A DNA stretch of 64,000 nt, taken from Leifsonia xyli (GTDB lineage Bacteria; Actinomycetota; Actinomycetes; Actinomycetales; Microbacteriaceae). The notes beneath the pieces are model-generated. The model saw nothing but the letters and a program-made list of their open reading frames with translations, was not told the origin of the DNA and searched no databases. Where the stretch lies: contig CP014761.1 of NCBI GenBank assembly GCA_001647635.1, positions 3,162,001-3,226,000 of the forward strand. Reading direction: 5' to 3'. This document shows positions 3,129 to 39,032 of this stretch, piece after piece (within the stretch, counting starts at the first letter, position 1; each line of letters begins with the position of its first letter). The position numbers and the translations under genes were made by a program.

Positions 3129-6074
3129 ATGAACCCATGGATGAGCCACGCACAGCGCGCGCTCGGCCGGCTGTTCCCCCCGCAGTCCGGTCCAGGGAGG
3201 GTGCTTCGCGCCGGCAAGGACGCCGCCCGCACCTTCCGTTCCGAGCTGAGCCACGAGGTGCCGGAGGCGGAGCCGGTCGACCGCGGCTCCGGCCTCACCG
3301 ACTACGCCGAGTGGCGGGCGCAGCAGCCGCCGCTCGAACCGCTGCCTGCCGGGCAGGCGACCACGTTCCTCGTCATCGTCGAGACATCGGGGTCCGGCGA
3401 CGACGACGAGGCGGCCCGCGTCGCCACGACCGAGGCGAGCATCGCGGCGCAGGTCGCGCTGGAGCCCCGGTCGATGGTGCTGCGCACCGGGACGCCGCTC
3501 CGCGAGGTGCTGCCCGACGTCCGGGAGGACTTCGTGCTGTTCCTGAAGTCGGGCTCCGTGCTCGACCCGCACGCGCTGGAGCAGGTGGCGAAGGAGCACC
3601 GCGTCGACCCGGTGCGCCGGGTGATCGCCTTCGACTCCGACCGGCTGACCGCCGACGGCGAGCGGGTGTCCCCGCTGTTCGGGCCGGTCTGGTCGCCCGA
3701 GATCATGCTCGGCGTCAACTACTTCGGCCGTGCGTTCGCCATCCGGGTGAAGGATGCGCGGAGCGCGAGCGGGGTCACGCTCGACGATCACGGCATCTGG
3801 CGGCTGCTGCTGCGTTCGGAGCTGACCGAGTCCTCCGTCGGGCGCGTCCCGCATGTCCTGCTGTCGGTCCCGGTGGAGCCGCCCGCGCCGGCGACGCCGG
3901 AGGACGCGGCGATGGTCGCGCGCGCCCTGAACGACCGCGGCGAGACGGCGACCGCGGAGGTGGACTCCGGCATCGTCCGGGTGCGCTTCGAGCCCACCGA
4001 CTGGCCCACCGTGTCCATCGTCATCCCGACGCGGCATTCGCGCGCGAACCTGGAGCGCCTGCTGCCCAGCCTCGCGACGACCGACTACCCGGAGTTCGAC
4101 GTCACGGTGGTCGACAACGGCGGCGAGACCGAGGAGAACGAGGCCTGGTACGCCGGGCTCGACACGGGTCTCCCGCTCCGTCACGTCTGGTGGACCGAGG
4201 AGCCGTTCAACTACTCCCGCGTCAACGACGTGACCGCGCGCTCCACCTCCGGCGAGGTGCTCGTCTTCCTCAACGACGACACCGAGATCGTCGACGCGGG
4301 CTGGCTGCGCGAGCTGGTCGGGATGCTGCACCGCGAGGGCGTCGGCACGGTCGGCTTCCAGCTCCGCACCGGCGACGGCCTGGTGCAGCACGGCGGCGTC
4401 ATGCTCGGCCCGGGCGGGTTCGCGGCCAACCTGTTCGCCGGGATGCGGCCGGAGGAGGACTCGCTGATCGGCCCCGTGCGCTGGTACCGCGACACGCTCG
4501 CGGTCACGGCGGCGTGCGTCGGCATCCGCCGGGAGCTGTTCGAGGAGGTCGGCGGCTTCGACGAGCGCTTCCAGCTCACCGGGAGCGACGTCGTGCTCGG
4601 GCTCGACCAGATCATCCGCGGGCGCCGCAACGTCGTCATCCCCTTCGACGCCGTACGTCACTTCGAGTCGCTGACGCGCGGCGCGCACGCCCCGCGCGCC
4701 GACTCCTTCGCCAGCTACTGGCGCTACCAGCCGTGGCTCGCCGCGGGCGACCCCTACATCTCGCCGAACGTCTGCCGCCTGGTCGAGGTGCCGCGCTTCG
4801 CGTCGGTCGACGACCCGCCCCCGTTGAAGCTCACCATGGCCGGCCTCGGCCGCCCGTGGAAGTCGGACGCGCAGCAGTCCACCATCTCCGAGGACGCGAC
4901 CGCGCTGCTCCCGCTGGCGACCATCACCGCGGAGGAGGTGGACCGCGTCGTCGAGACGCACGCCGCGACCGTGGGGCGTCGCGAGGTGCGCACCATCAAC
5001 TGGCTGCTCCCCGGCTTCGACCTCCCGTTCTTCGGCGGGGTCAACACGACGCTGCGGATGGCCGACAAGCTCGCGCGCGAGCACGGGGTGCTCAACCGGT
5101 TCCTGGTCAACGGGCACCCGGCGAACGAGTTCTACGAGTCGGCCATCGTCGCGGCGTTCCCGGGGCTCGCCGGCTCTGAGGTGGGCAACTACTACGGCAC
5201 CGACGAGGGTCTCGCGGCCGTGCCTCCCGCGGACGCCGCCATCGCGACCTTCTGGCTCACGGCCCGGGATGTGGCCAAGCTGTCGGGGACGCCTCGCAAG
5301 TTCTACCTCATCCAGGACTACGAGCCGTCGTTCTACCCGGCGAGCACGATGTTCGCGATGACCGAGCAGACCTACCGGCTCGGGCTCTACGGCATCTGCA
5401 ACACGCGCAGCATGCACGACATCTACGCCGGCGGCTACGGCGGAACGGCGACCTACTTCGAGCCGGCGGTCGACCGTGCCATCTTCCACGCCGAGGGCCG
5501 CGCAGAGCCGGAGCCCGGCGAGCCCGTGACGATCTTCGCCTACGCGCGCGACCACTTCCGCAACTGCTGGGAGCTCGTGTACGCGGCCCTCAGCGAGATC
5601 AAGCGGCGCCACGGGGACAGGGTGCGGATCGTCGCCGCCGGGGCCAAGTACCTCCCGCCGAGCGCCGACTTCATCGACCTCGGGCTGCTCGACTACCGCG
5701 CGACCGGACGCCTCTACCGCGAGACGGACATCGGCATCACGCTGCAGATCTCACGCCACCCGTCGTACCTGCCGCTGGAGCTGATGGCGAGCGGCGTGGC
5801 GATGGTGGTGCCGGACTCGCCGTGGTTCCGCTGGCTGTTCGAGCCGGGCGTCAACGCGCGCACGTCGATGATGACCTACGAGGAGGTCGTGGCCGCGCTC
5901 GACGAGCTGGTCCGGGATGCGGAGACCCGCAAGCGCATCGCCGTAGCGGGTAAGGCGACCATCGACGACCGGCACTCCGACTGGGATGCGGCGCTCGACG
6001 GGCTCTACGACTTCCTGTCCGACCCGGAGGGCAACGCGGTCCCGACGGCCGCTCCGCCCTGGGTCGCGCCCTGA
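3129..6074 (+). CDS. Two-domain glycosyltransferase: GT2 domain fused to a WsaF-like GT4 domain
   Basis: This 981-residue protein has three parts. Residues 1 to about 285 form a poorly recognisable N-terminal region. Residues about 290-520 form a GT2 domain, with TVSIVIPTRHSRANLERLLP, the Asp-rich VFLNDDTEI, and GGFDERF before an acidic GSDVVLGLD segment. Residues about 610-965 form a GT-B domain like WsaF-type rhamnosyltransferases, with NWLLPGFDLPFFGGVN, YLIQDYEPSFYP and ISRHPSYLPLELMASG. A protein like this could add two different sugars or links. Family knowledge suggests roles in rhamnose-rich glycan assembly, but the substrate is inferred. The ATG has no good ribosome binding site. A TAGACT box ends seven bases before it, which fits a leaderless transcript. 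The last 70 bases overlap the convergent gene ending at 6005. Confidence 0.85.
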   Translation: MNPWMSHAQRALGRLFPPQSGPGRVLRAGKDAARTFRSELSHEVPEAEPVDRGSGLTDYAEWRAQQPPLEPLPAGQATTFLVIVETSGSGDDDEAARVATTEASIAAQVALEPRSMVLRTGTPLREVLPDVREDFVLFLKSGSVLDPHALEQVAKEHRVDPVRRVIAFDSDRLTADGERVSPLFGPVWSPEIMLGVNYFGRAFAIRVKDARSASGVTLDDHGIWRLLLRSELTESSVGRVPHVLLSVPVEPPAPATPEDAAMVARALNDRGETATAEVDSGIVRVRFEPTDWPTVSIVIPTRHSRANLERLLPSLATTDYPEFDVTVVDNGGETEENEAWYAGLDTGLPLRHVWWTEEPFNYSRVNDVTARSTSGEVLVFLNDDTEIVDAGWLRELVGMLHREGVGTVGFQLRTGDGLVQHGGVMLGPGGFAANLFAGMRPEEDSLIGPVRWYRDTLAVTAACVGIRRELFEEVGGFDERFQLTGSDVVLGLDQIIRGRRNVVIPFDAVRHFESLTRGAHAPRADSFASYWRYQPWLAAGDPYISPNVCRLVEVPRFASVDDPPPLKLTMAGLGRPWKSDAQQSTISEDATALLPLATITAEEVDRVVETHAATVGRREVRTINWLLPGFDLPFFGGVNTTLRMADKLAREHGVLNRFLVNGHPANEFYESAIVAAFPGLAGSEVGNYYGTDEGLAAVPPADAAIATFWLTARDVAKLSGTPRKFYLIQDYEPSFYPASTMFAMTEQTYRLGLYGICNTRSMHDIYAGGYGGTATYFEPAVDRAIFHAEGRAEPEPGEPVTIFAYARDHFRNCWELVYAALSEIKRRHGDRVRIVAAGAKYLPPSADFIDLGLLDYRATGRLYRETDIGITLQISRHPSYLPLELMASGVAMVVPDSPWFRWLFEPGVNARTSMMTYEEVVAALDELVRDAETRKRIAVAGKATIDDRHSDWDAALDGLYDFLSDPEGNAVPTAAPPWVAP

Positions 6075-7552
6075 ACGGGACAGGGCAGGGCGAGTCGCGG
6101 TAGCGCGCGCCACGCGGAGACGACCGCGTAGGCGAGCGCGGCCACGACGACGAGCGTGAGCACGATCGTGCCGGCGGGCGGCTGCCACTGCGGATCGAGC
6201 AGGAACTGCGGCCACGAGCCGTTCGTCACCGCGTAGCGGCGCAGCGTGAACGCGAACGCGGCGAACTGTCCCACCGCGACCAGCACCAGCAGAGTGCGGA
6301 CGACCGCCGTCGAGCCGCGCCCCGGGCGGAACCCGGCCGCGTCGAGGGCGAGGCCGCCGGCGATGGCGGCGAGGAGCAGCACGGCCAGCACGTAGCGGCC
6401 CTGCCAGACGTCGCCGACCTGCCGCCACAGCGCGACCTGGGTGACGACCGGCACCACGACGAGAGCCACGGTGAATCCGAGGGCCACCCATCGCTCGCGG
6501 CCGCGGCCGAGCACGAGCGGCAGCACGAGCACCGCGAGGAAGAGCGCTGTCCACAGGGTCTGGACGCCCTCGGGCGCCGGCACGTCCACGGTGCCGAACA
6601 GACCGGTCAGCTGCCGCGCGTAGACGAACGTGTTCTCGAGCATGTTCTGCGCGACCGTGAACAGGCTCCCCGGGACCGGCTCGGCCAGCGCCTGCACCGC
6701 ATTCGCGGGCCGGGTGAACCAGATCAGCTGGCCGAGGCAGACCACGACGATGGCGCCCAGCACGACCCACGTCGAGACCCGCTGGACCAGCGCGCGCCAG
6801 TCGTCCCGACGGAGCAGTGCGATGACTCCGAGGCCGGCGAAGACGACCCACAGCATCCCGAGACTGCGTCCGCCCGTCACGAGCGCGGTGGAGACGACGG
6901 CGGTCGCGGCGGCGAACCCGAAGGCCCAGCCGGAGGGACGGACGCGGGCCAGGACGAGCAGCGCGGCGAACAGGCCCCCCGCCGCCGCCATCTCGATCGC
7001 GTTCGGATTGATCGCGCCGCCCAGGAAGGCGACCTCCGGAGTGATGGCGGCGATCGGCAGTAGCAGGCCCCAGCGCACGCCCGGCATCCGCCGCAGGAGG
7101 ACGGCCGTCGCGGCGAACACGGCCGCGACGAGCGCGGCCGACAGCATCCGCATCCCGAAGATGGCGGCCGTCCCCGACAGCACCAGCGAGGGGAGCCCGA
7201 CGATCAGGTAGTAGACCGGGGAGTTGGTCTGCGCGGTCGAGATGCTGTCGCGCAGCTCGGCCCCGTAGGGCGACGTGCCGACGCACGCCGGCGTCTTGTC
7301 CGGCCGTCCGGCGAAGCAGGCGCCGGCGCCGGGGATGAAGAGGTAGCCGGGCGCTTCGAAGTGCTTGCCGTCTCCGACGATCTGACCGCGCACCGCCGCC
7401 GTCGCCCGCACGGTGTGCGAGGCCTCGTCCGGCACGGCGTAGATCGGGGTCGCGAGCGACCAGGCGGCCATCAGTGCGAAGAGCACCGCGAACACCGAGA
7501 CGAAGAGGCGGCCCGGGAAGCGGGGATCGGTCGTCGCCGCGTCCATCGTCAT
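6005..7552 (-). CDS. DUF2142 family multi-spanning membrane protein
   Basis: This 515-residue integral membrane protein has about ten to twelve hydrophobic segments. After the first segment it carries ATPIYAVPDEASHTVRATA, the DUF2142 signature loop with a conserved Asp-Glu. DUF2142 proteins resemble GT-C glycosyltransferases, which use an acidic residue in the first outer loop and a polyprenyl-phosphate sugar donor. If so, this protein would modify surface glycan outside the membrane; that activity is inferred. A second family landmark is GDVWQGRYVLAVLLL, the Trp-Gln-Gly-Arg-Tyr motif, near residue 390. The start ATG overlaps the stop of the gene at 7549-8916 as ATGA, so the two genes are translationally coupled. 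The 3' end overlaps the convergent transferase gene by 70 bases. Confidence 0.88.
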   Translation of the reverse strand: MTMDAATTDPRFPGRLFVSVFAVLFALMAAWSLATPIYAVPDEASHTVRATAAVRGQIVGDGKHFEAPGYLFIPGAGACFAGRPDKTPACVGTSPYGAELRDSISTAQTNSPVYYLIVGLPSLVLSGTAAIFGMRMLSAALVAAVFAATAVLLRRMPGVRWGLLLPIAAITPEVAFLGGAINPNAIEMAAAGGLFAALLVLARVRPSGWAFGFAAATAVVSTALVTGGRSLGMLWVVFAGLGVIALLRRDDWRALVQRVSTWVVLGAIVVVCLGQLIWFTRPANAVQALAEPVPGSLFTVAQNMLENTFVYARQLTGLFGTVDVPAPEGVQTLWTALFLAVLVLPLVLGRGRERWVALGFTVALVVVPVVTQVALWRQVGDVWQGRYVLAVLLLAAIAGGLALDAAGFRPGRGSTAVVRTLLVLVAVGQFAAFAFTLRRYAVTNGSWPQFLLDPQWQPPAGTIVLTLVVVAALAYAVVSAWRALPRLALPCPVQGATQGGAAVGTALPSGSDRKS

Positions 7553-8916
7553 CCCTGCGGAAGGAACAGGCTGGCCAGGAACGTCACGGCGCCGACGCCG
7601 AGCAGGATCCAGCGCGGCACGGGGCGCCGTGCCGGCACGAGCAGGGCGGCGCAGGCGAGGAACAGCGGGACCAGCGAGATGCCGTAGCGGGCGGGCGGCG
7701 GGTCGGGATAGGTGCCCAGGGTCACGTAGGTCACCGCCGAGAGCAGCGGAGCCGAGATGACCGCGGCGGCGAAGGTGGCGAGCGCGATCGCGTTGCGCTT
7801 GCGGCCCCAGCGCGCCACGATCAGCAGGCCGATCACGCCCGCGACGGCGATCCAGGAGACGGCGTAGTTGACGATGAGGCCCGGACCCTTGAGGAAGGTG
7901 GTGATGTCGCCGACGCCCTTGGTGGCGCCGTCGATGAACAGGCCCGACTGAAGGATGATCGAGGTGATCCCGAGCGGACGCACCTTGCCCATGTCGGGGG
8001 CGGGGCCCACGGCCGTGGCGGTGGAGTACGCGAGCCAGGCGACCTGCGCGACGACGGCCGCGACCACGGCCACGATGGAGGTGATCGTGCGGCTGTCGCG
8101 GAGCAGCGCGCCGACCCAGCTCCAGCGCGACGTGCGCTCGCGGTAGGCGGCGACGCCTGCGCGCAGCACCACGAAGAGCACGGCGGCGGCGACGGCTGCG
8201 AGGTTCTGCACCTTGAGCAGCGTCACGAAGACGGCCCCGGCGACGAACAGGATGCGTCCCCGGCGTTCCAGGACGAACGTCGCGAGGTAGAGCATCAGCC
8301 CACCGGCGAAGAGCGCCGTGGCGTCCGTGCTGATGTACGTGTTGGACCAGTACGCGGGCAGCGAGCCGATCATCAGCAGGCCGACGGCCGTCGCCGCGAC
8401 CGGGTGCACGCGCAGCCGGCGCAGCGCCAGGTACAGCAGCAGGGCGGCGGCGGCGAGCCAGATGGCGCCGACGAAGCGCCCGGCGTCCACCAGGCCGACA
8501 CCCGCCCACACCAGCGGCTCGGCGAGCACGCGGGTGATCGCGAAGTAGAGAGGAGTGTAGATGTACGCGGAGGTGGCGCCGTGGAACGGGAAGAGCTCCT
8601 TGTTCTCGGCGTTCTTCAGCTCGCACCGCGCGTCCGGCGCCGGCTGCAGCAGCCTGAGACCGCGACAGCCGAGCTCCTGACGGGCGAAGGTGCCGGTCTG
8701 CTCACCGCGATGGACCGTGCCCTGCGTGGCGACCTTGGCGAAGTAGTCGATGTAGACGTACTCGTCGACCGGCGAGACGCCCTTGTGACCGGGCACCTGG
8801 ACGATCCCGACCAGCAGGGCGGCGAGCACCAGCAGCACCGGCCCGATCGACGCCCGCGAGAACACGCGCTCCCGGAAGCCCCGGCGTCGCGGCGTCGTGG
8901 CGGTGTCGGTGCTCAT
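7549..8916 (-). CDS. Multi-spanning membrane protein related to DUF2142 / GT-C proteins
   Basis: This 455-residue protein starts with a short basic cytoplasmic N-terminus and a hydrophobic segment (SIGPVLLVLAALLVGIVQVPG). The loop KGVSPVDEYVYIDYFAKVA keeps the Asp-Glu pair seen in DUF2142 proteins. About ten further hydrophobic segments follow, including GRFVGAIWLAAAALLLYLAL. The outer loop after the Asp-Glu motif contains two cysteines (QELGCRGLRL and DARCELKN) that could form a disulfide. The family is less certain than for its neighbours, and it may be a divergent DUF2142 or PMT-like protein. It is the first gene of a two-gene operon with 6005-7552, joined by an ATGA overlap. Use of a lipid-linked sugar is inferred. 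Confidence 0.75.
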   Translation of the reverse strand: MSTDTATTPRRRGFRERVFSRASIGPVLLVLAALLVGIVQVPGHKGVSPVDEYVYIDYFAKVATQGTVHRGEQTGTFARQELGCRGLRLLQPAPDARCELKNAENKELFPFHGATSAYIYTPLYFAITRVLAEPLVWAGVGLVDAGRFVGAIWLAAAALLLYLALRRLRVHPVAATAVGLLMIGSLPAYWSNTYISTDATALFAGGLMLYLATFVLERRGRILFVAGAVFVTLLKVQNLAAVAAAVLFVVLRAGVAAYRERTSRWSWVGALLRDSRTITSIVAVVAAVVAQVAWLAYSTATAVGPAPDMGKVRPLGITSIILQSGLFIDGATKGVGDITTFLKGPGLIVNYAVSWIAVAGVIGLLIVARWGRKRNAIALATFAAAVISAPLLSAVTYVTLGTYPDPPPARYGISLVPLFLACAALLVPARRPVPRWILLGVGAVTFLASLFLPQG

Positions 8917-9016
8917 GCGGTGGCGGCCTCATATCCGATCGCGGTCCGGGCGGGGGTCGCCAGAGAGCTTAGCAAGTCCCTGTCGCCGCGCCCCGGTGCG
9001 CCTCAGGGGGCCTTGG

Positions 9017-9041
9017 TAGGCTGGCGGGCGCATCCGCCAGC
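9017..9041 (+). promoter_or_regulatory. -10 box overlapped by an 8-bp inverted repeat (putative operator)
   Basis: A TAGGCT -10-like box lies at 9017-9022. It overlaps an inverted repeat whose arms are GCTGGCGG (9020-9027) and CCGCCAGC (9034-9041), separated by six bases. The expected transcription start falls inside the repeat, so this could be an operator. It could instead be an mRNA hairpin just before the ribosome binding site (AAAGGA, 9043-9048) of the gene at 9053. Confidence 0.4.
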
Positions 9042-9052
9042 GAAAGGACCGC

Positions 9053-11530
9053 ATGCCCACCACGCGCCCCGGAGTCGTCTCCGTCGTCCTCGTGAACTTC
9101 CGGGGAACCGACGACACGCTGACCGCCATCGAGCACCTCGGCCGGCTCGACTGGCCCGCCGACCGCCTCGAGATCGTCGTGGTCGAGAACGCCTCCGGCG
9201 ACGACAGCGCCGAGCGCATCCGCCGCGAGGCCCCGCACGTCGTCCTCATCGAGTCGAAGGCCAACCTCGGCTTCGCCGGCGGCTGCAACCTCGGCGTGCG
9301 CAGCGCCTCCGGCGAGTACGTCGCGTTCCTCAACAACGACGCCAAGCCCGACGCCGCGTGGGTGCGCGCCGCCGTCGAGCGCTTCGAGTCGAGCTCGCGC
9401 GTCGGCGCGGTCGCCAGCCGGGTGCTCGACTGGGACGGCGAGAAGGTCGACTACATCGGCTCGGCCATGACCTGGTTCGGCCAGGGCTACAAGCCGCTGA
9501 CGGCGCAGCCCGTCCCCTCGACCCCGGACGTGCCGAAGGACGTGCTGTTCGGCACCGGCTCGGCGATGTTCGTCCGCCGGTCGGTCTACGAGGAGCTCGG
9601 CGGGTTCGACGAGCGCTTCTTCATGTTCTTCGAGGACGTCGACCTCGGTTGGCGGCTCAACCTGGCCGGCCACCGGTTCGTCTACGAGCCGGCGTCGCTG
9701 GCCTTCCACAAGCACCACGCGTCCATGTCGTCGTTCGGGGCGTTCAAGGAGAGCTATCTGCTGGAGCGCAACGCGCTGTTCACGCAGTACAAGAACCTGG
9801 GCGAGGAGGCGCTGGCGACGGCTCTCCCCGCGACCCTGGCGCTCACGGTCCGTCGCGGCGTGGCCAAGGGCGGCCTCGACTCGACCGAGTTCGACCTCCG
9901 CAAGGGCGGCTCCAACGACCCGACGATGGAGATCGACAAGGAGACGGTCGCCGCCGTCTACGCGATCGACCAGTTCGTCGAGAACCTGCCCGGCCTCACC
10001 GCCGACCGCGAGCGCATCCAGAGCACCCGCGTCGTCGCCGACAGCCGGATCTGGGCGCTGTTCGGCGAGACCGACGCGCCGTCGTACACCGACGAGCACT
10101 ACCTCGAGGGTTACGACAAGCTGGCGACCGCGTTCCCGGTCACCGAGAGCCCGGCGGTCACCCGCGTCCTCATCATCACCGGCGACCCGATCGGCGCGAA
10201 GATGGCCGGCCCCGCGATCCGCGCGTGGAGCATGGCCGAGGCGCTGGCGAAGGACAACCTGGTGACCCTCGTCTCGCTCGCCGGCCTCGAGCCGGTGTCC
10301 GCGCCGTTCGACGTGGTCCACATCCGCCCGGGCGACGACCGCGCGATGAAGGCGCTCGAGCGCGAGAGCGACGTCATCGTCTTCCAGGGTCTCGCGATGG
10401 CGCTGTTCGAGAGCCTCCGCAAGACCGACAAGATCATCGTCGCCGACGTCTACGACCCGATGCACCTGGAGCAGCTGGAGCAGGGCAAGGAGCTCGGCCG
10501 GGCGCAGTGGGACAAGCAGGTCCTGGATGCGACCGACGTGCTGAACGAGCAGCTCGAGCGCGGCGACTTCTTCCTGTGCGCCTCCGAGCGGCAGCGGCAC
10601 TTCTACCTCGGCCAGCTCGCGGCGCTGGGCCGCATCAACCCGGCGAACTACGACGACGATCCCGACCTCGACCACCTCATCGACGTCGTCCCGTTCGGGC
10701 TCTCCGAGACCCCGCCGGCGCACGAGCGCGACGTCCTCAAGGGCGTGCTGCCCGGCATCGGCCGCGACGACAAGCTGCTGCTCTGGAGCGGGGGCCTCTA
10801 CAACTGGTTCGACCCGAAGTCGCTCATCGAGGCCGTCGCGCGTCTGTCGGAGACCCACCCCGACGTGCGGCTGTTCTTCCAGGGCACCAAGCACCCGCAT
10901 CCCGGTGTCCCCGAGATGGGCATCGTGGCGGAGTCCCGCCAGCTGGCCCGCGACCTCGGCGTGCTCGACACCGCGGTGTTCTTCAACAGCTCCTGGGTCG
11001 ACTACGCCGACCGGCAGAACTACCTCACCGAGGCGGACGCGGGTGTGAGCACGCACTTCTCGCACGTCGAGACCACGTTCTCGTTCCGGACGCGCATCCT
11101 CGACTACCTCTGGGCCGGCCTGCCGATGGTGGTCACCGAGGGCGACCACTTCGCCCAGTTGGTCGAGGAGGAGAAGCTGGGCGTCGTCGTCCCCTCCGGC
11201 GACGTGGCGGCGCTCGCCGCGGCGCTCGAGAAGGTGCTGTACGACGAGAAGTTCATCGCCGCCGCCAGGCGCAACGTCGCTCGGGTGCGGCAGCGCTACT
11301 TCTGGAGCGTCGTCCTGGCGCCGCTGGTGGACTTCGTCGCAGACCCGCGGCACGCGGCCGATCTCGTCGCTCGCGGGGTCGTCGGCTCCGGCGCTCCGGT
11401 CAAGCGCGCGACGACCCGCCGTAAGAAGCACGGCGTCCGGCACGACGTGGGTCTGTTCTTCCACTACATGCGCAACGGCGGCCCTGCCGTCGTGGCGAAG
11501 AAGATCCGGAGCCGGCTGGGGCGGCGATGA
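9053..11530 (+). CDS. Two-domain glycosyltransferase: GT2 fused to GT4
   Basis: This 825-residue protein joins two glycosyltransferase domains. Residues about 5-270 form a GT2 domain with SVVLVNFRGTDDTLTAIEHL, the donor-site FLNNDAKPD, and FFEDVDLGWRLNLAG, a pattern common in rhamnosyl- and galactofuranosyl-type GT2 enzymes. Residues about 360-770 form a GT-B GT4 domain with RVLIITGDPIGAKMAGPAIR and FSFRTRILDYLWAGLPMV. The GT4 half is a clear paralogue of the stand-alone enzyme at 402-1805. AAAGGA lies a few bases before the ATG. The 3' end overlaps the next gene by four bases (ATGA), so the two are translationally coupled. Both domains should act on cytoplasmic lipid-linked intermediates; the sugars are unknown. 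Confidence 0.88.
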   Translation: MPTTRPGVVSVVLVNFRGTDDTLTAIEHLGRLDWPADRLEIVVVENASGDDSAERIRREAPHVVLIESKANLGFAGGCNLGVRSASGEYVAFLNNDAKPDAAWVRAAVERFESSSRVGAVASRVLDWDGEKVDYIGSAMTWFGQGYKPLTAQPVPSTPDVPKDVLFGTGSAMFVRRSVYEELGGFDERFFMFFEDVDLGWRLNLAGHRFVYEPASLAFHKHHASMSSFGAFKESYLLERNALFTQYKNLGEEALATALPATLALTVRRGVAKGGLDSTEFDLRKGGSNDPTMEIDKETVAAVYAIDQFVENLPGLTADRERIQSTRVVADSRIWALFGETDAPSYTDEHYLEGYDKLATAFPVTESPAVTRVLIITGDPIGAKMAGPAIRAWSMAEALAKDNLVTLVSLAGLEPVSAPFDVVHIRPGDDRAMKALERESDVIVFQGLAMALFESLRKTDKIIVADVYDPMHLEQLEQGKELGRAQWDKQVLDATDVLNEQLERGDFFLCASERQRHFYLGQLAALGRINPANYDDDPDLDHLIDVVPFGLSETPPAHERDVLKGVLPGIGRDDKLLLWSGGLYNWFDPKSLIEAVARLSETHPDVRLFFQGTKHPHPGVPEMGIVAESRQLARDLGVLDTAVFFNSSWVDYADRQNYLTEADAGVSTHFSHVETTFSFRTRILDYLWAGLPMVVTEGDHFAQLVEEEKLGVVVPSGDVAALAAALEKVLYDEKFIAAARRNVARVRQRYFWSVVLAPLVDFVADPRHAADLVARGVVGSGAPVKRATTRRKKHGVRHDVGLFFHYMRNGGPAVVAKKIRSRLGRR

Positions 11531-12531
11531 CCGACGCGGCGACGGCCCCGACCATCTCGGTCGCGCTGTGCACGCATAACGGCGCGCGGTTCGTCCGGAG
11601 GCAGCTCGCGGGCATCCTCGCCCAGACGCTGCCGCCGGCGCAGCTGGTGGTCTCCGACGACGCATCGGCGGACGACACGGTCGCGATCGTCGACCAGGAG
11701 GTCGCGGCGCACCGCGCCTCCGGTGCTCCGACGCCCGAGCTGGTGCTGCTGCGCAACGAGACCCCGCTGGGTGTCACGGCCAACTTCGAGCAGGCGCTGC
11801 GAGCGTCCACGGGCGACCTGATCGCGCTGAGCGACCAGGACGACGAGTGGGAGCCCGACAAGCTGGAGCGGATGGCCGCGTACTTCGCTCAGCGTCCCGG
11901 CCTCGGCTTCCTGCACACGGATGCGACTCTCATCGACGACGACAGCCTCCCGGCCGGCGGCACACTGTTCGGCGTCCTGGAGGTGACGGATGCGGAGCGC
12001 GCGGCCGTGCACTCGGGACACGCGTTCGACGTGTTCGTGCGCCGCAACCTGGCCACCGGGGCGACCGCGATGGTGAGCGCCGACCTGCTGCGGATCGCCC
12101 TGCCGTTCCCGGCGGAGTGGGTGCACGACGAGTGGCTGGCCGTCCAGGCGGCGGCGCGCGGCCGGCTCGACCTGAGCGAGCGTCCGCTCACCCGCTACCG
12201 GCGTCACGACGAGAACCAGATCGGGGCGGGTGACCCGACCCTCCGCCACAAGATCGGACGCGTGCTCGGTCGCCGTGGCGATCGCAACCGGATGCTGGCG
12301 GTGCGTTCGCGCATCCTCGCCGAACGTCTGGCGGGAGCCGCCGACGTGCCGTGGGAGAACCGCACGCTCGCGGAGGAGAAGGCTGCGTTCGAGGCGGAAC
12401 GGGCGGCCCTGCCGGTCAGCCGGCCGGCGCGCGTGGCCCGCGTGATCCGCCTGGCCCGCGGAGGCCGCTACGGCCGCCTGGCGAGCCGAGGGCGACTGGA
12501 CGTGCTCCGGGACCTGCTGCAACCGGCGTGA
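11527..12531 (+). CDS. Glycosyltransferase family 2 protein
   Basis: This 334-residue GT-A fold transferase starts with TISVALCTHNGARFVRRQLA, and LVVSDDASADDTVAIV and LIALSDQDDEWEPDKLE hold the nucleotide-sugar and metal-binding acidic residues. The sequence resembles WcaA/rhamnosyltransferase-type GT2 proteins of polysaccharide loci. Its ATG overlaps the stop codon of the GT2-GT4 gene (ATGA), so it is probably translated by the same ribosomes and may add the next sugar in the same chain. Unusually, its last 116 bases also encode, on the other strand, the end of the DUF2142 gene that stops at 12416. The specific linkage cannot be inferred. Confidence 0.88.
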   Translation: MTDAATAPTISVALCTHNGARFVRRQLAGILAQTLPPAQLVVSDDASADDTVAIVDQEVAAHRASGAPTPELVLLRNETPLGVTANFEQALRASTGDLIALSDQDDEWEPDKLERMAAYFAQRPGLGFLHTDATLIDDDSLPAGGTLFGVLEVTDAERAAVHSGHAFDVFVRRNLATGATAMVSADLLRIALPFPAEWVHDEWLAVQAAARGRLDLSERPLTRYRRHDENQIGAGDPTLRHKIGRVLGRRGDRNRMLAVRSRILAERLAGAADVPWENRTLAEEKAAFEAERAALPVSRPARVARVIRLARGGRYGRLASRGRLDVLRDLLQPA

Positions 12532-14089
12532 ACCGCCGGGCGCCGTCGCCGTCGCCGGACGCGCGGAACAGCAGGACCGCCGCGACCGCGAACGCTGCGG
12601 CGGCGACGATCAGCACCGCAGGCGCGCCGCCGAGTGGTGCCCAGTCCGGCGAGCCGAAGAGCAGCGTCTTGACCGAGCCGTTCGAGCCGACCGCGTAGCG
12701 ACGCAACGCCGTCTCGAACGCCCACAGCTGCCCGATCGCCGCCAGCGTCACGACGAGGACGCGCAGCCGCAGGCGGCTGTGCCGCGCCCGGAACACCGAG
12801 TCACCGAGCAGCGCCGCCAGCCCGATCACGAGGCAGAGGAACAGCGGCAGATTGTACCGGCCCTGCCAGATGAGGCCGCCGCCGTGGATGTAGACGGCCT
12901 GCACGACCGCGGGCAGCAGGAGGAAGGCGCCGACCAGTACCGAGGCGACGAGCAGTCGCCGGCCGCGGAGCACGAGCAGCGCGCCGACGCAGAGTGCGCC
13001 GATGGCGAGGCCCCAGACGTACAGCACCGGATCGGGCGCCGGGGTGTCCATCCATCCGAACAGGCCGACCAGGCCCTGCGAGTATCCGACGGTCCCGAGG
13101 AACACCTTCTGGAACCCGGTGACCGGCGATGCTCCGACACCGGGGAACTGCAGCGCGTCCTCGGGGTGGGCGATCGCGTTGGCCAGCGAGTTGGTCCCGA
13201 AGGTCCAGGCCGCCGCGGCGAGCGTGCCGGCGGCGACGACGCCGATCGTGACCAGGACGGCCGGGCGCCGCAGCAGCTGCGCGAGGCCGCGTCCACCGGT
13301 GAGCAGCAGCGGGACGGCCAGGGCGGCGAGCACCCAGAGCGGCGAGAGCCCGCGCGCGTTCACCGCGACGACGGCCGACACGGCGATGATGGCGGCGCGC
13401 CCGCGCAGTCGATCCGGGGCGGGGGAGAGCGTGACGCCGAGCATCCCGCAGAACACCGCGAGCGTCGCGGTCGCCTCGACGGCGCTGGGGTTCACCGTCC
13501 CGCTCAGGAACAGCAGCATCGGGGTGACGGCCACGGCGAACGCGAGCACGGGCATCCGGCGCTCGCGGAACGTCATCACCACGGCGAAGGCGAGCGCGGC
13601 GAATAGGGCCGAGAGCACGGCGCTGGCCACCCGCATGGCCGTCAGCCCGTCCGCGTCGCCGAACAGCAGCGACGGCCAGCCGACGAGGGCGTAGTACAGC
13701 GGGTTGTACAGCCCGGCGGAGGTGGGCGCTTCCACCAGCGCGGCCGGATCGGCCTCGGCCGGGAGCGGGCAGTTCGCCGGGACCGTGGGCTGGAACGCGT
13801 AGCACGTCTCGCGGTGCGCATCCGCGACGTACTGCGGCACGTGGACGAGGTTCCCCCACGCGGACGGCTCGCCGAACAGCTCGCCGCGCACCACGCTGGC
13901 GGCGCGGATGATGTGCGCGGGCTCGTCCGGAGAGGCCGAGGGCGGCGTCGCCCAGGCCCAGATCGAGCCGAGCACGGCGAGGACGGCCCACGCGGCGAAG
14001 AAGGCGGCCACGGGGCGCCCGACGGGCCTGCGGGTGACGGCGACGAGCCGGGAGAGCTGCTCCGGGCGCGTGCGCGGCACCGTCGTCAC
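12416..14089 (-). CDS. DUF2142 family membrane protein with low-complexity C-terminal tail
   Basis: This is a 557-residue integral membrane protein. After the first transmembrane segment (AAFFAAWAVLAVLGSIWAWA) it carries the DUF2142 loop PSASPDEPAHIIRAASVVRG. Later landmarks are LYNPLYYALVGWPSLLF, GTVNPSAVEATATLAVF and IHGGGLIWQGRYNLPLF. The last 45 or so residues are rich in Gly, Arg, Pro and Ser and lie antisense to the end of the GT2 gene, so the tail may have little function. The start is uncertain: GTG at 14089 is the most upstream in-frame start that makes sense, but it has no good ribosome binding site, and another GTG follows nine bases later. It is the last gene of an operon that begins at 18444. 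GT-C-like glycosyl transfer outside the membrane is inferred. Confidence 0.85.
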   Translation of the reverse strand: MTTVPRTRPEQLSRLVAVTRRPVGRPVAAFFAAWAVLAVLGSIWAWATPPSASPDEPAHIIRAASVVRGELFGEPSAWGNLVHVPQYVADAHRETCYAFQPTVPANCPLPAEADPAALVEAPTSAGLYNPLYYALVGWPSLLFGDADGLTAMRVASAVLSALFAALAFAVVMTFRERRMPVLAFAVAVTPMLLFLSGTVNPSAVEATATLAVFCGMLGVTLSPAPDRLRGRAAIIAVSAVVAVNARGLSPLWVLAALAVPLLLTGGRGLAQLLRRPAVLVTIGVVAAGTLAAAAWTFGTNSLANAIAHPEDALQFPGVGASPVTGFQKVFLGTVGYSQGLVGLFGWMDTPAPDPVLYVWGLAIGALCVGALLVLRGRRLLVASVLVGAFLLLPAVVQAVYIHGGGLIWQGRYNLPLFLCLVIGLAALLGDSVFRARHSRLRLRVLVVTLAAIGQLWAFETALRRYAVGSNGSVKTLLFGSPDWAPLGGAPAVLIVAAAAFAVAAVLLFRASGDGDGARRFTPVAAGPGARPVALGSPGGRSGLRGPGGSRGPRAPAG

Positions 14090-14196
14090 CGCGTACGTGC
14101 GGGCGTCGTCGCCCGGCGGCCGGCATCGGTCTGAGGAGGCACGGTTGCACCCTAGCGGACGGGCAGGGCTCGCGGGGCGCCGTTCCTCCGGCGTGC

Positions 14197-15750
14197 CTAG
14201 ACCGTCGAGTGCACCAGGCGGTCGGCCGGCGGCTCGGCCGCGACCGTCGGCGTGCGCGAGGCGCGCACGCCCAGCCACACGCCCGCGGCGAGCAGAGCCG
14301 CGGTGAGCAGGAGCCAGAGCAGCACTCCGCCGGGCGGGCTCCAGGGCGGCGACCCGATCAGCATGACCTTCAGCGACCCGGTCGGCCCGACGGTGTAACG
14401 GCGGAGCGTGCTCTCGAAGGCGTAGAAGTGGGCGGCGGCCAGCGCCACCAGGCTGATCAGCGTGAGCCGTCGCAGCCATCGGGCGGCCGGGGCGATGTCC
14501 ACGGTGCGGTCGAGGGCCACGGCGAGTCCGACGCAGAGGCAGACCAGGAGCGGCAGCGCGTAGCGGCCCTGCCAGATGATGCCGCCTCCGGTGATGTACG
14601 CGGCCTGCACGATCGGGGGCAGCAGCACGTAGGCGCCGAGCAGGGCGAGGGCGAACACCAGGAGCCGCCCGCGGAGCAGGCAGACGGCCGCGAGGAGCAG
14701 CGCCCCGATCAGCGCCGCCCAGATGAAGAAGACCTCCGGTGGCGCGGGCGTGTCGAGCCAGCCGAACAGCCCGATCGCGCCGTGGGCGTACTCGATCGTG
14801 CGCACGAGGGTGATCCAGAAACCGCTGAGCGGGTTCGTGCCCTGCCCGGGGAAGTGCTGCGGGGTGGAGTCCGGGTTCTCGACCGCGTTGTAGAGCGAGT
14901 TGCTGCCCAGCGTCCATCCCACGGCGAAGAGCGCGCCCGCGGCTACGACGCCGGCCGCGATCCACACCGCACGGCGGCGGAGCAGGTCGCGGATCAGCGG
15001 GAGCGGAGCCAGGATCAGCGGCACGGCGATCGCGAGCAGCACCCAGAGCGGGGAGAGACCGCGGGCGTTCACCGCGAACGCGCCGGAGACGGCGACGACC
15101 GCGGCGCGCACGGCGAGCCGGTCGGGCCGTGCATCGAGGACCACCGCCAGCATCGCGGCGAAGAGCGACAGTGTCGCGGTCGCCTCGACGGCCGTGGGGT
15201 TCACCGAACCGCCGAGGAAGAACAGAGCGGGCGTCATCGCGAGGGCGAACCCGAGCAGGGTGAGGGCCCGGCGCGGCAGCGCCCACAGCACGGCGAAGCC
15301 GAGGGCGGCGAAGAGGGAGGCGAGGATGCCGCTGACCACGCGCATCGCGTAGATCCCGGCGTCGTCGTGGAAGAGCAGCGACGGCCAGCCGACGACCACG
15401 TAGTAGAGCGGGTTGTACAGCCCCGCCGTCGTCGGCGCGGTGGTCGGCGCATCCGGAGCGGAGGGCGCGGGAGCCGCATCCGGGCCGTGCGTCACGCAGT
15501 CGGCGGTGCGCTCGTAGTGGAACGCGAAGCAGGTGAGCTGCTGCGTGCGGGCGATGTAGCCCGGCACCGTCACCAGGTGGCCCTCGGGGGACGGCGTCCC
15601 CACCCACTCGCCGCGGACGACGCTGGCGGCCCGGATGATATGGGCCGGCTCGTCCGGGGAGGCCGAGATCGGGGTCGCCAGGGCCCAGCAGGCGCACAGG
15701 GCCGAGAGGAGGGACCACACCACGAGGAGCGGTCGCCACAGTCCGCGCAA
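14197..15750 (-). CDS. DUF2142 family membrane protein
   Basis: This 517-residue protein is a close paralogue of 12416-14089. After the first membrane segment it has ATPISASPDEPAHIIRAASV, then LYNPLYYVVVGWPSLLF, GSVNPTAVEATATLSLF and YITGGGIIWQGRYALPLL. The Asp-Glu in the first outer loop fits the catalytic position of GT-C glycosyltransferases. The start is TTG at 15750, supported by AGGAG just upstream at the end of the preceding DUF2304 gene, only four bases away. The gene order GT2, DUF2304, DUF2142, DUF2142 suggests that the GT2 makes a polyprenyl-phosphate sugar which the DUF2142 proteins then use. The acceptor is unknown. Confidence 0.88.
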   Translation of the reverse strand: MRGLWRPLLVVWSLLSALCACWALATPISASPDEPAHIIRAASVVRGEWVGTPSPEGHLVTVPGYIARTQQLTCFAFHYERTADCVTHGPDAAPAPSAPDAPTTAPTTAGLYNPLYYVVVGWPSLLFHDDAGIYAMRVVSGILASLFAALGFAVLWALPRRALTLLGFALAMTPALFFLGGSVNPTAVEATATLSLFAAMLAVVLDARPDRLAVRAAVVAVSGAFAVNARGLSPLWVLLAIAVPLILAPLPLIRDLLRRRAVWIAAGVVAAGALFAVGWTLGSNSLYNAVENPDSTPQHFPGQGTNPLSGFWITLVRTIEYAHGAIGLFGWLDTPAPPEVFFIWAALIGALLLAAVCLLRGRLLVFALALLGAYVLLPPIVQAAYITGGGIIWQGRYALPLLVCLCVGLAVALDRTVDIAPAARWLRRLTLISLVALAAAHFYAFESTLRRYTVGPTGSLKVMLIGSPPWSPPGGVLLWLLLTAALLAAGVWLGVRASRTPTVAAEPPADRLVHSTV

Positions 15751-15754
15751 CCCG

Positions 15755-16132
15755 CTACTCCTGCTCGCGGCTGAGCTGGGCGACGCGCTCCTCGAGCTGG
15801 CTGATCCGCAGCTCCTGGAGGGCGCTCCGCTCGGCCAGGGTGCGCGACTTGCTCTCGAGCGTGGTCAGTTCGGAGCTGTGCTGGATGCAGACCAGGAACA
15901 GCACTGCGATGCTGACGAAGAAGACCAGGTTGACCGGCTGGCCGACCCCGATCAGGCCGGCGGCCCAGTCCAGGATGGCCGGGAAGACGCCGATCAGGAG
16001 CGCGAGGCTGCCCGCGACGATCCACCAGATGGCGTGACGCTCGCGCATCCGGCCGCGCCGGAGCATCTCGATGACCACCGCGAGCGTGAGCAGCGCGGCG
16101 AGGATTCCGAAGATATAGCTGGTGATCGACAT
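15755..16132 (-). CDS. DUF2304 family small membrane protein
   Basis: This 125-residue protein has three hydrophobic segments, the first being SITSYIFGILAALLTLAVVIE and the third NLVFFVSIAVLFLVC. Between them lies HAIWWIVAGSLALLIGVFPA with the Trp-Trp typical of DUF2304. The C-terminus (ELTTLESKSRTLAERSALQE onward) is a predicted coiled coil. DUF2304 proteins commonly sit beside dolichol-phosphate-mannose-synthase-like GT2 enzymes, as here, and may anchor them to the membrane or help flip their product; that role is inferred. The start codon shares one base with the stop of the upstream GT2 gene (TGATG), so the two proteins are probably made in fixed ratio. Confidence 0.85.
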   Translation of the reverse strand: MSITSYIFGILAALLTLAVVIEMLRRGRMRERHAIWWIVAGSLALLIGVFPAILDWAAGLIGVGQPVNLVFFVSIAVLFLVCIQHSSELTTLESKSRTLAERSALQELRISQLEERVAQLSREQE

Positions 16133-16866
16133 CAGGCCGTCGCCGTCTCCTTCAGGGCTGTGCGCGGGCGCATGAGGGCCACCAGCAGGGCGACGAACGC
16201 ACGCCCGAGATAGACCGCGGACTTGACGAAGTTGTGGGAGGGCTGGCCGCCGGACCGCGGACGCATCGCGACGGGGACCTGACGGACGCGGAGCCCCGCC
16301 CGTCCGGCGATGACCAGCGCCTCGATGGTGTCGCCCAGGTACTCGGCCGGGAAGGAGTGGGCGAAGAGGGCGATCGCGCGCGGTCCGTTCGCCTTGAAAC
16401 CGCTCGTCGTGTCCTTGAGCGGGGTGCGTACGACGCGGCTGAGCACCGTGGAGAGCACGCTCATCGCCCACTTGCGCGGTCCGCGCACGGTGTAGTCGCC
16501 CTCACCGGAGAAGCGCGCGCCGATGACCAGGTCGGCGTCGTCGAGACCGGCGAGCAGCGCGGGGACGAGTCCCGGGTCGTGCTGGCCGTCGGCGTCGATC
16601 TGGACCGCGACCTGGTAGCCGTTCTCGACCGCGTACTGGAACCCGAGTCGGAGCGCGCCGCCGACGCCCATGTTGAACGGCATGGAGGCGACCTGCGCAC
16701 CGGCCGCCCGGGCGACCTCCGCCGTCGCGTCGAGAGAGCCGTCGTCGACGACCAGCACGGAGGCTCCCGGGAGCTTGGCGTGCACCTCGGCGATCACCGC
16801 CGCGACCGACTCCTCTTCGTTGAAGGCGGGCATGACGATGAGCGTGTCGGAGAGGGCGTAGGGCAT
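16132..16866 (-). CDS. GT2 glycosyltransferase, polyprenyl-phosphate-sugar synthase-like (DPM1 type)
   Basis: This 244-residue protein is a compact GT-A transferase. It has DTLIVMPAFNEEESVAAVIA, SVLVVDDGSLDATAEVA, and QIDADGQHDPGLVPALLAGL with the Asp-x-Asp-x-Gln-His-Asp motif of dolichol-phosphate mannose/glucose synthases. There is no obvious transmembrane segment, apart from a C-terminal hydrophobic stretch (YLGRAFVALLVALM) that may touch the membrane. Family knowledge says such enzymes transfer a sugar from a nucleotide donor to polyprenyl phosphate. The ATG at 16866 is chosen; a GTG nine bases upstream is possible. It is coupled to the DUF2304 gene by TGATG and probably supplies lipid-linked sugar to the DUF2142 proteins around it. 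Confidence 0.88.
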   Translation of the reverse strand: MPYALSDTLIVMPAFNEEESVAAVIAEVHAKLPGASVLVVDDGSLDATAEVARAAGAQVASMPFNMGVGGALRLGFQYAVENGYQVAVQIDADGQHDPGLVPALLAGLDDADLVIGARFSGEGDYTVRGPRKWAMSVLSTVLSRVVRTPLKDTTSGFKANGPRAIALFAHSFPAEYLGDTIEALVIAGRAGLRVRQVPVAMRPRSGGQPSHNFVKSAVYLGRAFVALLVALMRPRTALKETATA

Positions 16867-16924
16867 GGCAGTCACGGTACTAGATGGGCGGCGGAGGGAG
16901 ACGGCACGGAGGCGGGCGTCGGAG

Positions 16925-18444
16925 TCATTCTCGCACGGAGAGCCGGGTGGTCACCGAGCGGATGGTGAGCCAGGCGCCGACGGCGGCGGCGGCCGTCAGC
17001 ACGACGACGAGGACGATCCAGCCTCCCGGCGGCTGCCACACCGGGTGCCGCAGGAGGTCGAGCCAGGTGCCCGTGCTGGTGAGTCCCGTCACGTAGCGCC
17101 GCACCATCCACAGGAACGCCGCGGCCTGGCCGATCGCCAGCAGGACGATCGACACCCGGACCAGGGGCCGCAGCGGCCCCGCCGGATCGAGCGCGGGAAG
17201 GGCGCGGTCGAGCCCGATACCGGCGAGCAGGAGCAGCATCACGGCGGGAGCCAGGGTGTACCGGCCCTGCCAGATGTAGCCGGCCACACCGATCACGGCG
17301 GCCTGCGAGAACGGCGGGACGAGCACGAGGGCGAGCCCGATCGGAAGCGCCGCGAGCTGCGTCCGGCGTCCGCCGAAGACGATGCCGGTGACCAGGATGC
17401 CGCCCCCGACGACGGCCCAGATCCCGATCGCGATGGCGGGAGCCGGGATCTCGAGCCAGCCGAACTGCGCGATCCACCCGGTCATGAAGGAGAACGTCTG
17501 ATCGATGGTCCAGGAGAAGCCCTGCCCCAGCTGCTGCCCGCGCCGATCGGCTGGTAGGCGGGGGTGAGGGCACGGGGACGCAGGTAGAACACCGCGACCG
17601 CGAGCGTGACAGCGGCGACGACACCGACGGCGACCCACGTCGCCCACCACCGGAGCACGATGCGGAGCGCGGAGCGGTCGGACAGGATGAGCGCGGCCAC
17701 CAGGGCGAGCAGCAGCCACAGCAGCGCGATGCTGCGGGTGTTCACGAGGAGCAGCGACACCGCGGTCACGCCGACGAGCCGCCAGGCCAGCGTCCGCCGC
17801 GACGCCGGTGCGCCGAAGGTGGCGGTCAGGAGGGCGAACACGGCCGCCGTCGCCGCCACCTCCAGCCCGTTCGGATTGACCGTCCCCGACAGGAAGAGCG
17901 TCATGGGCGTCACGCCCGCGGCGAGGGCGACGGTCGCCCACCGCGACCGGGGGAGCGACCGGACGGCGACGAACGCGAGCGCGAGCAGGGCGGCGCACAG
18001 CGCGGCGCTCACGAGCCGCATGGCGTACAGGCCCTTGGCGCCGTCGAGCACCGCGGTCGGCCAGCCGACGGCCAGGTAGAACACCGGGGTGCTCAGACCG
18101 GTCGACGAGTGACCGGTGGCGGGCTCGTCCTGGTCGGCGATCGGGGTGACGCACGCCGGGGTCTGGGTGATGTCCCGCTTGAAGCACGGCATGTGCTTCT
18201 CGAGCTGTGCGAAGTACTCCGAGACCTTCAGATCGATGGTCCCGGGGACGGCCGTCGACTCCGGCCCGAAGAGCTGACCGTGCGCGGCCGCGTAGGCCCG
18301 CATGGCATGAGCCGGCTCGTCGGGGCTGGCGCCCTGCGGCACCGCGAGCGAGTAGGAGCCCATCATCAGGAACAGCACGCCGAAGGCCAGCCAGAACGTC
18401 GTCCACGCGCCGCGGACGCCGGTCCGGGGTGGCACAGAGGTCAT
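16925..18444 (-). pseudogene. DUF2142 family membrane protein gene with a one-base frameshift
   Basis: The first 300 or so codons from ATG 18444 encode a normal DUF2142 N-terminus: GVLFLMMGSYSLAVPQGASP leading into the DEPAH loop, then STPVFYLAVGWPTAVL and GTVNPNGLEVAATAAVF. Near 17526-17529 this frame turns into unrelated sequence and stops at 17482. The rest of the protein (QGFSWTIDQTFSFMTGWIAQ, GYIWQGRYTLAPAVMLLL) continues in another frame to 16925. Adding one G to the GGGG run (CCCC at 17526-17529 on the plus strand) restores a full-length protein of about 506 residues. Both halves keep family motifs and coding character, so this is either a recent mutation or a sequencing error. The gene would head the operon that includes the GT2, DUF2304 and two other DUF2142 genes. 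AGGA lies upstream of the start. Confidence 0.85.
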
Positions 18445-18544
18445 CACGGCATCCTGTCGGTCGCGGAGCACCTGCACGAACCCGGTGAGGTAGGTTCGGA
18501 TGCTGGGCGGAGGCCGCCCGCGCAGGCTGACGAAAAGGGGACAG

Positions 18545-21299: not shown

Positions 21300-21328
21300 T
21301 GCGTCCAGACTTTCGTCGTAGTGTTGGC

Positions 21329-25339: not shown

Positions 25340-25353
25340 CCCCGAAGGATAGC

Positions 25354-38998: not shown

Positions 38999-39032
38999 GG
39001 TGCTCCTATGGATCGGGGTCGGCGTCGAGCGC

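Follow-up and report, generated by a model that had tools for sequence, protein, structure and literature searches.

A conserved GT2-DUF2304-DUF2142 locus of Leifsonia xyli with an expanded set of putative outer-face glycosyltransferases

What several DUF2142 proteins might do beside one predicted maker of lipid-linked sugar is the question raised by a stretch of the Leifsonia xyli genome (GenBank assembly GCA_001647635.1), positions 3162001-3226000 of a 3,596,761-base single contig (CP014761.1). Within these 64,000 nucleotides, referred to as the window, four DUF2142 genes (A, B, C and D) and a distant relative (E) lie close to genes for a DPM1-like GT2 glycosyltransferase and a small DUF2304 membrane protein. 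The locus is read here, with a probability of roughly 0.7, as a four-component system for glycosylation across the membrane whose final transferases form an enlarged set, and in which the DUF2142 proteins probably attach sugars to an outer wall polymer from the lipid-linked sugar of the gene pair next to them. Streptococci, lactococci and mycobacteria offer examples of the general scheme; distinctive here is the expanded, long-kept DUF2142 set. The genes and motifs concerned are as follows.

6005..7552, minus strand: A, DUF2142 protein of 515 amino acids with PDEASH and WQGRY (PF09913, 109.5 bits; ortholog clade of 9 rows)
7549..8916, minus strand: E, distant DUF2142 relative of 455 amino acids with VDEY and ARYG and a predicted GT-C fold
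9053..11530, plus strand: two-domain glycosyltransferase (GT2 and group 1 type; PF00535 and PF13692), between the two minus-strand units
11527..12531, plus strand: GT2 glycosyltransferase (PF00535, 74.2 bits), between the two units, its 3' end tail to tail over B
12416..14089, minus strand: B, DUF2142 protein of 557 amino acids (PF09913, 140.1 bits), sister group of C in the tree
14197..15750, minus strand: C, DUF2142 protein of 517 amino acids (PF09913, 145.0 bits; model pLDDT 92.8; GT-C matches)
15640..15657, minus strand: PDEPAH of C, with Asp33-Glu34 placed by prediction on the outer side at the tip of juxtamembrane helix 1; Asp33 is the predicted catalytic residue
14560..14574, minus strand: WQGRY of C, residues 393-397, at the outer end of transmembrane helix 10
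15755..16132, minus strand: DUF2304 small membrane protein of GacJ/WpsB type (PF10066, 87.9 bits)
16132..16875, minus strand: DPM1-like GT2, predicted polyprenyl-phosphate sugar synthase (PF00535, 72.6 bits; nearest solved structures of DPM synthase and ArnC type)
17540..18444, minus strand: N-terminal piece of D with PDEPAH (PF09913, 110.3 bits; clade of 6 rows; dN/dS 0.145 against genome G019)
16925..17550, minus strand, other frame: C-terminal piece of D with WQGRY (PF09913, 18.9 bits, below cut-off; dN/dS 0.237 against G019)

Two minus-strand units can be distinguished. The first consists of A and E, the start of A overlapping the stop of E by 4 bp. The second runs D-GT2-DUF2304-C-B, with D spanning 16925-18444, gaps of 49 bp from D to the GT2 gene, 4 bp from DUF2304 to C and 107 bp from C to B, and a one-base overlap of GT2 and DUF2304 provided that DUF2304 starts at the ATG at 16132. 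The units are parted by the two plus-strand glycosyltransferase genes (9053-11530 and 11527-12531). A (6005-6074, 70 bp) and B (12416-12531, 116 bp) overlap the ends of convergent glycosyltransferase genes. The GT2-DUF2304-DUF2142 operon is a real and conserved feature; four of the 27 other Leifsonia genomes (G012, G014, G019 and G026) share the gene order A, E, GT, GT2, B, C, DUF2304, GT2, D. The first-pass annotation had placed four DUF2142 genes and one relative in one locus, three of them (D, C and B) in an operon with the DPM1-like GT2 and DUF2304 genes, and both statements are upheld, the first by PF09913 matches for A, B, C and D and by profile relation for E. Some gene limits were revised: an open reading frame listed at 6005-8626 gives way to gene A, ending at 7552, and B and D are both present, but B occupies 12416-14089, its start set from the near-identical protein P0055, and D is in two pieces in different frames meeting at about 17.53 kb.

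Membership of DUF2142 was judged by the curated cut-off of Pfam PF09913 (30.1 bits), exceeded by A, B, C and the N-terminal piece of D, whereas the C-terminal piece of D alone falls under it. Genome-wide (3.6 Mb) four matches exceed the cut-off, all within the locus, and two more rows lie below it, one being the C-terminal piece of D. E gives no Pfam match at an E-value of 0.01 or less and is not counted as a DUF2142 member; its family is related to the DUF2142 family of C by profile comparison (hhalign 93%, E-value 3.2e-7, 330 columns). An NCBIfam search of A, B, C, E and the DUF2304 protein gave no match. PDEASH or PDEPAH together with WQGRY is present in A, B, C and D, in agreement with the earlier claim of a PDE(P/A)xH-type loop and WQGRY in four of the five proteins; E has VDEY and ARYG instead. 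In an alignment of C with 92 of its 120 listed relatives (489 found), all of them close relatives sharing at least 45% identity, P32, D33, E34 and H37 show no variation (93/93 rows), and WQGRY is kept in 92-93 rows per position. The alignment for E was built from 88 of 110 relatives. Among the matches listed, the closest relative of C outside its own cluster is a Leifsonia xyli protein with 85% identity, and a PDExxH-type motif with WQGRY occurs in 40 of 53 DUF2142 copies from other Leifsonia genomes.

A tree of 53 of the 56 DUF2142 copies that exceed the cut-off in other Leifsonia genomes, in which D of the window is represented by its N-terminal piece only and from which three copies far from the locus (G018, G020 and G022) were left out, resolves four ortholog groups with starred support (A, B and C with 9 rows each, D with 6), B and C being sisters. 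Long branches and open forks leave their deepest branching order uncertain. A recent tandem duplication of the four copies was considered and is ruled out by these groups. The four groups are old and distinct, with a common core of conserved outer-side residues, and therefore probably make different linkages. Copy counts likewise rule out a multi-copy DUF2142 complement as the usual state. In an Actinomycetota sample, with counts read from rows by hand, 38 of 296 genomes (source included) have PF09913 matches over the cut-off, with two copies at most in any genome but this one; in 150 genomes of the family, three copies are found in two non-Leifsonia genomes (G103 and G131), and Leifsonia G023 has four. 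Three or more copies are present in 10/28 Leifsonia genomes, in G018 and G020 with one copy outside the locus, and copies over the cut-off vary from none to four within the genus. No expanded DUF2142 set of such kind is reported in the literature consulted on DUF2142.

Structure models predict a GT-C fold for C and E, with Foldseek matches to GT-C proteins for each, and the secondary structure of both models puts the Asp-Glu pair at the tip of juxtamembrane helix 1. The GT-C activity put forward in the first-pass annotation gains a predicted fold for C and E; for A, B and D it is proposed by homology. Profile searches of PDB sequences, started from the alignments for C and for E, found no GT-C enzyme; four weak rows for C (E-values 0.06-0.07) are cation-efflux proteins and were set aside. 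With the helices of the C model taken as membrane spans, 17 Arg/Lys residues fall across seven inner stretches versus 9 across six outer ones, although the outer are longer in total, and PDEPAH and WQGRY of C come to lie on the predicted outer side, so that by this positive-inside count the Asp-Glu loop of C is predicted not to be cytoplasmic. When 32 rows from groups A-D are aligned (29 of relatives and three of the window), 36 columns never vary; outer loops hold 22 of them, membrane helices 14 and the 49 inner-loop positions 0, an outer-loop enrichment with Fisher p 0.004 when kinship of the rows is ignored. Two cysteines of the first outer loop are invariant in the 32 rows, which would suit a disulphide outside the cell, and only 13 columns are fixed inside each group yet different between groups. 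From the model, the active site of C is predicted to be on the outer face and GT-CA-like, with Asp33 as the predicted catalytic Asp of GT-CA type.

Turning to the donor side, the DUF2304 protein and the window GT2 both score above their Pfam cut-offs. The nearest solved structures to this GT2 are dolichol monophosphate mannose synthase (E-value 3e-8) and ArnC-type undecaprenyl-phosphate transferases (E-value 2e-7). Its best NCBIfam match is PpgS (NF058614) at 88.2 bits against a curated cut-off of 370, so it is not a PpgS member. Published systems are drawn on, here and below, as described in the relevant passages of the cited sources. DUF2304 is typical of GacJ-like proteins (PMC8327497), and precedent in homologues elsewhere lends support to the proposal that the GT2-DUF2304 pair may make a polyprenyl-phosphate sugar. 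PF09913 is found in 27/28 Leifsonia genomes and PF10066 in 23/28; 22 carry both families, separated at their closest by 114 bp to 8.9 kb and in 10 of these genomes by no more than 263 bp, and 24/24 DUF2304 matches in the genus adjoin a GT2 similar to that of the window (neighbourhoods, operon gaps and GtrA distances in other genomes were read by hand from coordinates). The single DUF2304 gene of the source genome sits beside C, B and D. Among the 150 family genomes, 79 exceed the cut-off for DUF2304, 62 for DUF2142 and 49 for both, a co-occurrence with a Fisher odds ratio of 7.3 (p 6e-8, kinship of genomes ignored); in those 49 the two are on one contig in 47, within 5 kb in 38 and within 300 bp in 15. 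Closeness alone is no proof of a shared pathway, since the two families are often in one polysaccharide locus anyway. A 708-residue protein, P0036, with both PF10066 and PF09913 was rejected as a natural fusion: by eye, the part after DUF2304 is an apparent frame-shifted DUF2304 end, and P0036 therefore shows neighbourhood only.

Several observations weigh against the reading. The fold rests on models of C and E, with A, B and D assigned by homology, and the Foldseek scores are low, with query-normalised TM-scores of 0.38-0.41 and rmsd above 10 for the five GT-C matches of C and TM-scores of 0.42-0.54 for the four of E; the motif alignment is likewise confined to close relatives. The two families are also found apart: DUF2142 without DUF2304 occurs in 13/62 DUF2142 genomes of the family sample and in 5/28 Leifsonia (G002, G011, G015, G021 and G025), and DUF2304 without DUF2142 in 30/79 DUF2304 genomes. 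D is broken in this genome by the frame break near 17.53 kb; in 5/5 other clade members it is one open frame, and the dN/dS values of its pieces against G019 (0.145 and 0.237) are near those of the six intact genes tested (0.07-0.22), so that D appears about as constrained as its neighbours and the break is therefore either recent or a sequencing error. Lastly, 13 of the 53 Leifsonia copies form a second subfamily with PDDDxH or PDEDYH and without WQGRY, for example:

L083:12793-14067: DUF2142 protein of the second subfamily
L086:4112-5470: DUF2142 protein of the second subfamily
L095:2702-4123: DUF2142 protein of the second subfamily

As a mechanism, the GT2 (16132-16875), aided by the DUF2304 membrane protein, would, judging from homologues, load a sugar on undecaprenyl phosphate in the cytoplasm. 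The lipid-linked sugar would possibly be lengthened by a cytoplasmic GT2 such as that at 20412-21362, and would be flipped by the Wzx-like protein at 21329 or by a GtrA protein encoded at another site of the genome. On the outer face A, B, C and E, and D where intact, would act as GT-C glycosyltransferases, as the fold predicted for C and E and the topology predicted for C suggest, with the Asp at the end of juxtamembrane helix 1 taking part in catalysis and a wall polysaccharide made by this cluster as the presumed acceptor. The two further genes are:

20412..21362, minus strand: GT2 (PF00535); by synteny, nine relatives have its ortholog immediately ahead of the DPM1-like GT2
21329..22744, plus strand: Wzx-like flippase candidate, from profile comparison of its family

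Neither a Pfam model over its cut-off nor a PDB sequence matches the protein at 21329; the family of this protein matches PF01943 proteins by hhalign at 85% (E-value 6.2e-6, 360 columns), with three control families below 1%. In nine genomes an ortholog of the 20412 GT2 precedes the DPM1-like GT2 at a distance of about 20-65 bp, measured between alignment ends, and Wzx-like genes frequently lie close by.

In the four-component GacI/GacJ/GacK/GacL system of Streptococcus pyogenes a monosaccharide is transferred (PMC10821137, PMC8035078). The likeness lies in a GT2 with a DUF2304-type activator, a polytopic GT-C transferase and, for the candidate at 21329, possibly a Wzx-type flippase (PMC10821137, PMC8035078), and at the present locus too a GT2 synthase adjoins a DUF2304 protein; there, however, one GT-C is named, against four DUF2142 genes and E in Leifsonia, and the phylum is another. 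The partner of the Mycobacterium tuberculosis synthase PpgS (Rv3631), Rv3632, is presumably a DUF2304 protein. Together they make polyprenyl-phosphate GalNAc for the transferase Rv3779 (PMC5964476, PMC6487176, PMC3485146), likewise an actinobacterial GT2 and small membrane partner supplying lipid-linked sugar, but with a single transferase and with a synthase whose family cut-off the window GT2 does not reach. Three-component systems (CsbB, GtcA, YfhO) combine a GT2, a GtrA flippase and a GT-C (PMC8035078) and share the lipid-phosphate sugar logic. GtrA lies within 4 kb of DUF2142 in five Leifsonia genomes, namely three of the five DUF2304-free ones (G015, G021 and G025, not G002 or G011) and 2/22 with both families (G001 and G004), whereas the GtrA gene nearest to the window locus is about 28 kb from A. 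The GtrA genes near DUF2142 in DUF2304-free genomes hint that DUF2142 enzymes can use either kind of donor module.

Within the favoured four-component reading, the pair may follow lactococcal logic and only prime a lipid-phosphate oligosaccharide, which cytoplasmic glycosyltransferases lengthen, the Wzx-like protein flips and the DUF2142 proteins polymerise or attach to a backbone, in the roles of WpsI and WpsJ. This is a tentative possibility. WpsA and WpsB prime the pellicle repeat oligosaccharide (PMC10821137), and the candidates for WpsI and WpsJ in lactococci belong to DUF2142 and are presumed to polymerise the oligosaccharide or to attach it (PMC12599335); PMC13390465, where the name WpsJ denotes another protein, was set aside as a source. 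Of the control genomes, Lactococcus lactis alone matched PF09913, and it was among the three that matched PF10066. The Lactococcus set (WpsA, WpsB, WpsG and WpsJ, with WpsI) shares the GT2 with a small membrane partner and the DUF2142 candidates. Its pair primes an oligosaccharide, as the Leifsonia pair may do; Leifsonia has four orthologous DUF2142 groups. The 20412 orthologs just upstream of the synthase and the Wzx-like genes near them agree with such a scheme; however, the 20412 GT2 is present in the fetched stretches of only 16/23 DUF2304 genomes (source included), and two Wzy_C-type proteins of the window could be the polymerases instead.

A second sub-case of the favoured reading, possible but to be held loosely, is that all DUF2142 enzymes draw on one polyprenyl-phosphate monosaccharide and each acts at an acceptor position of its own, by the logic of GacI/J/L or PpgS/Rv3632/Rv3779 multiplied. 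One synthase serving two GT-C enzymes has precedents in GttA with GtlB and GttB (PMC8035078) and in EpaI-EpaJ with EpaP or EpaQ (PMC8327497). The window GT2 is the only synthase-type match inside the DUF2142 locus, the sole DUF2304 gene of the genome sits by C, B and D, and of five further GT2 matches to the synthase in the source genome (27-38% identity) two adjoin PMT_2 GT-C genes of their own; one of these two, at L114:631-3991, is a GT2-GtrA fusion followed by a PMT_2/YkcB-like protein, a separate three-component-like system. Lipid donors diffuse, however, and donors made elsewhere in the genome by such further GT2 proteins may also serve the DUF2142 enzymes. A and E stand outside the D-GT2-DUF2304-C-B unit, an additional GT2 directly precedes the synthase in nine relatives, five of the 28 Leifsonia genomes have DUF2142 but no DUF2304 (three of them with GtrA within 4 kb), and the product of the pair may be the start of an oligosaccharide, as with WpsA/WpsB. 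Between monosaccharide (Gac) and oligosaccharide-priming (Wps) logic the data favour neither. That the DUF2142 proteins are transporters or structural membrane proteins and not sugar transferases is very improbable, for although the consulted passages on DUF2142 hold no biochemical proof of transferase activity, GT-C matches with confident models and a conserved outer Asp speak against it. In its fullest form, in which five GT-C enzymes of the extended DUF2142 family draw on a single module supplying lipid-phosphate sugar or oligosaccharide and each makes its own linkage in one wall polysaccharide, the favoured reading is rather unlikely. Of the interpretation first offered, the GT-C part stands by prediction and the operon is real and conserved, while one donor for several acceptors is still conjectural.

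Some other genes in and around the window stand out. The GtrA gene left of the window (G000:C1:3139721-3140098) is a possible shared flippase; none of the five further GT2 matches is near it, and a strong GtrA match also lies 20-32 kb from the nearest locus DUF2142 gene in the other DUF2142-bearing Leifsonia genomes. Two adjacent genes of Wzy_C (O-antigen ligase) type (22686-23981 and 24002-25351), one just below the Pfam cut-off, are highly conserved in several relatives. A 633-residue protein at 18500-20401, divergent from D, is kept in G012, G014, G019 and G026, and its family has 25 invariant columns in 26 rows, including W161, D166, H218 and D219. It has no Pfam match and, in profile comparison, no relation to the DUF2142 and E families; a GT-C fold may still be present despite the lack of a profile match. 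At 38324-39880 (minus strand) an RDD membrane domain (PF06271) is followed by a putative cyclase domain (PF04199), an unexpected pairing. Of ten open reading frames searched with Pfam in the 20 kb to the left of the window, six had no match; the others comprise an LCP gene and genes for a sortase, a glycosyltransferase and a wall-binding protein.

DUF2142 is seldom named in the literature searched, and the family gains from this locus predicted GT-C structures, an outer-side signature (PDExxH, WQGRY and two cysteines) and a genomic tie to GT2-DUF2304. Together with the variation in copy number within Leifsonia, these features make the question of one donor, several transferases and different linkages testable. 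If one module does serve five enzymes, the pattern of the wall would be written by the paralogs that a strain keeps, and the loss of one, as with D, would alter the surface while leaving donor supply untouched.

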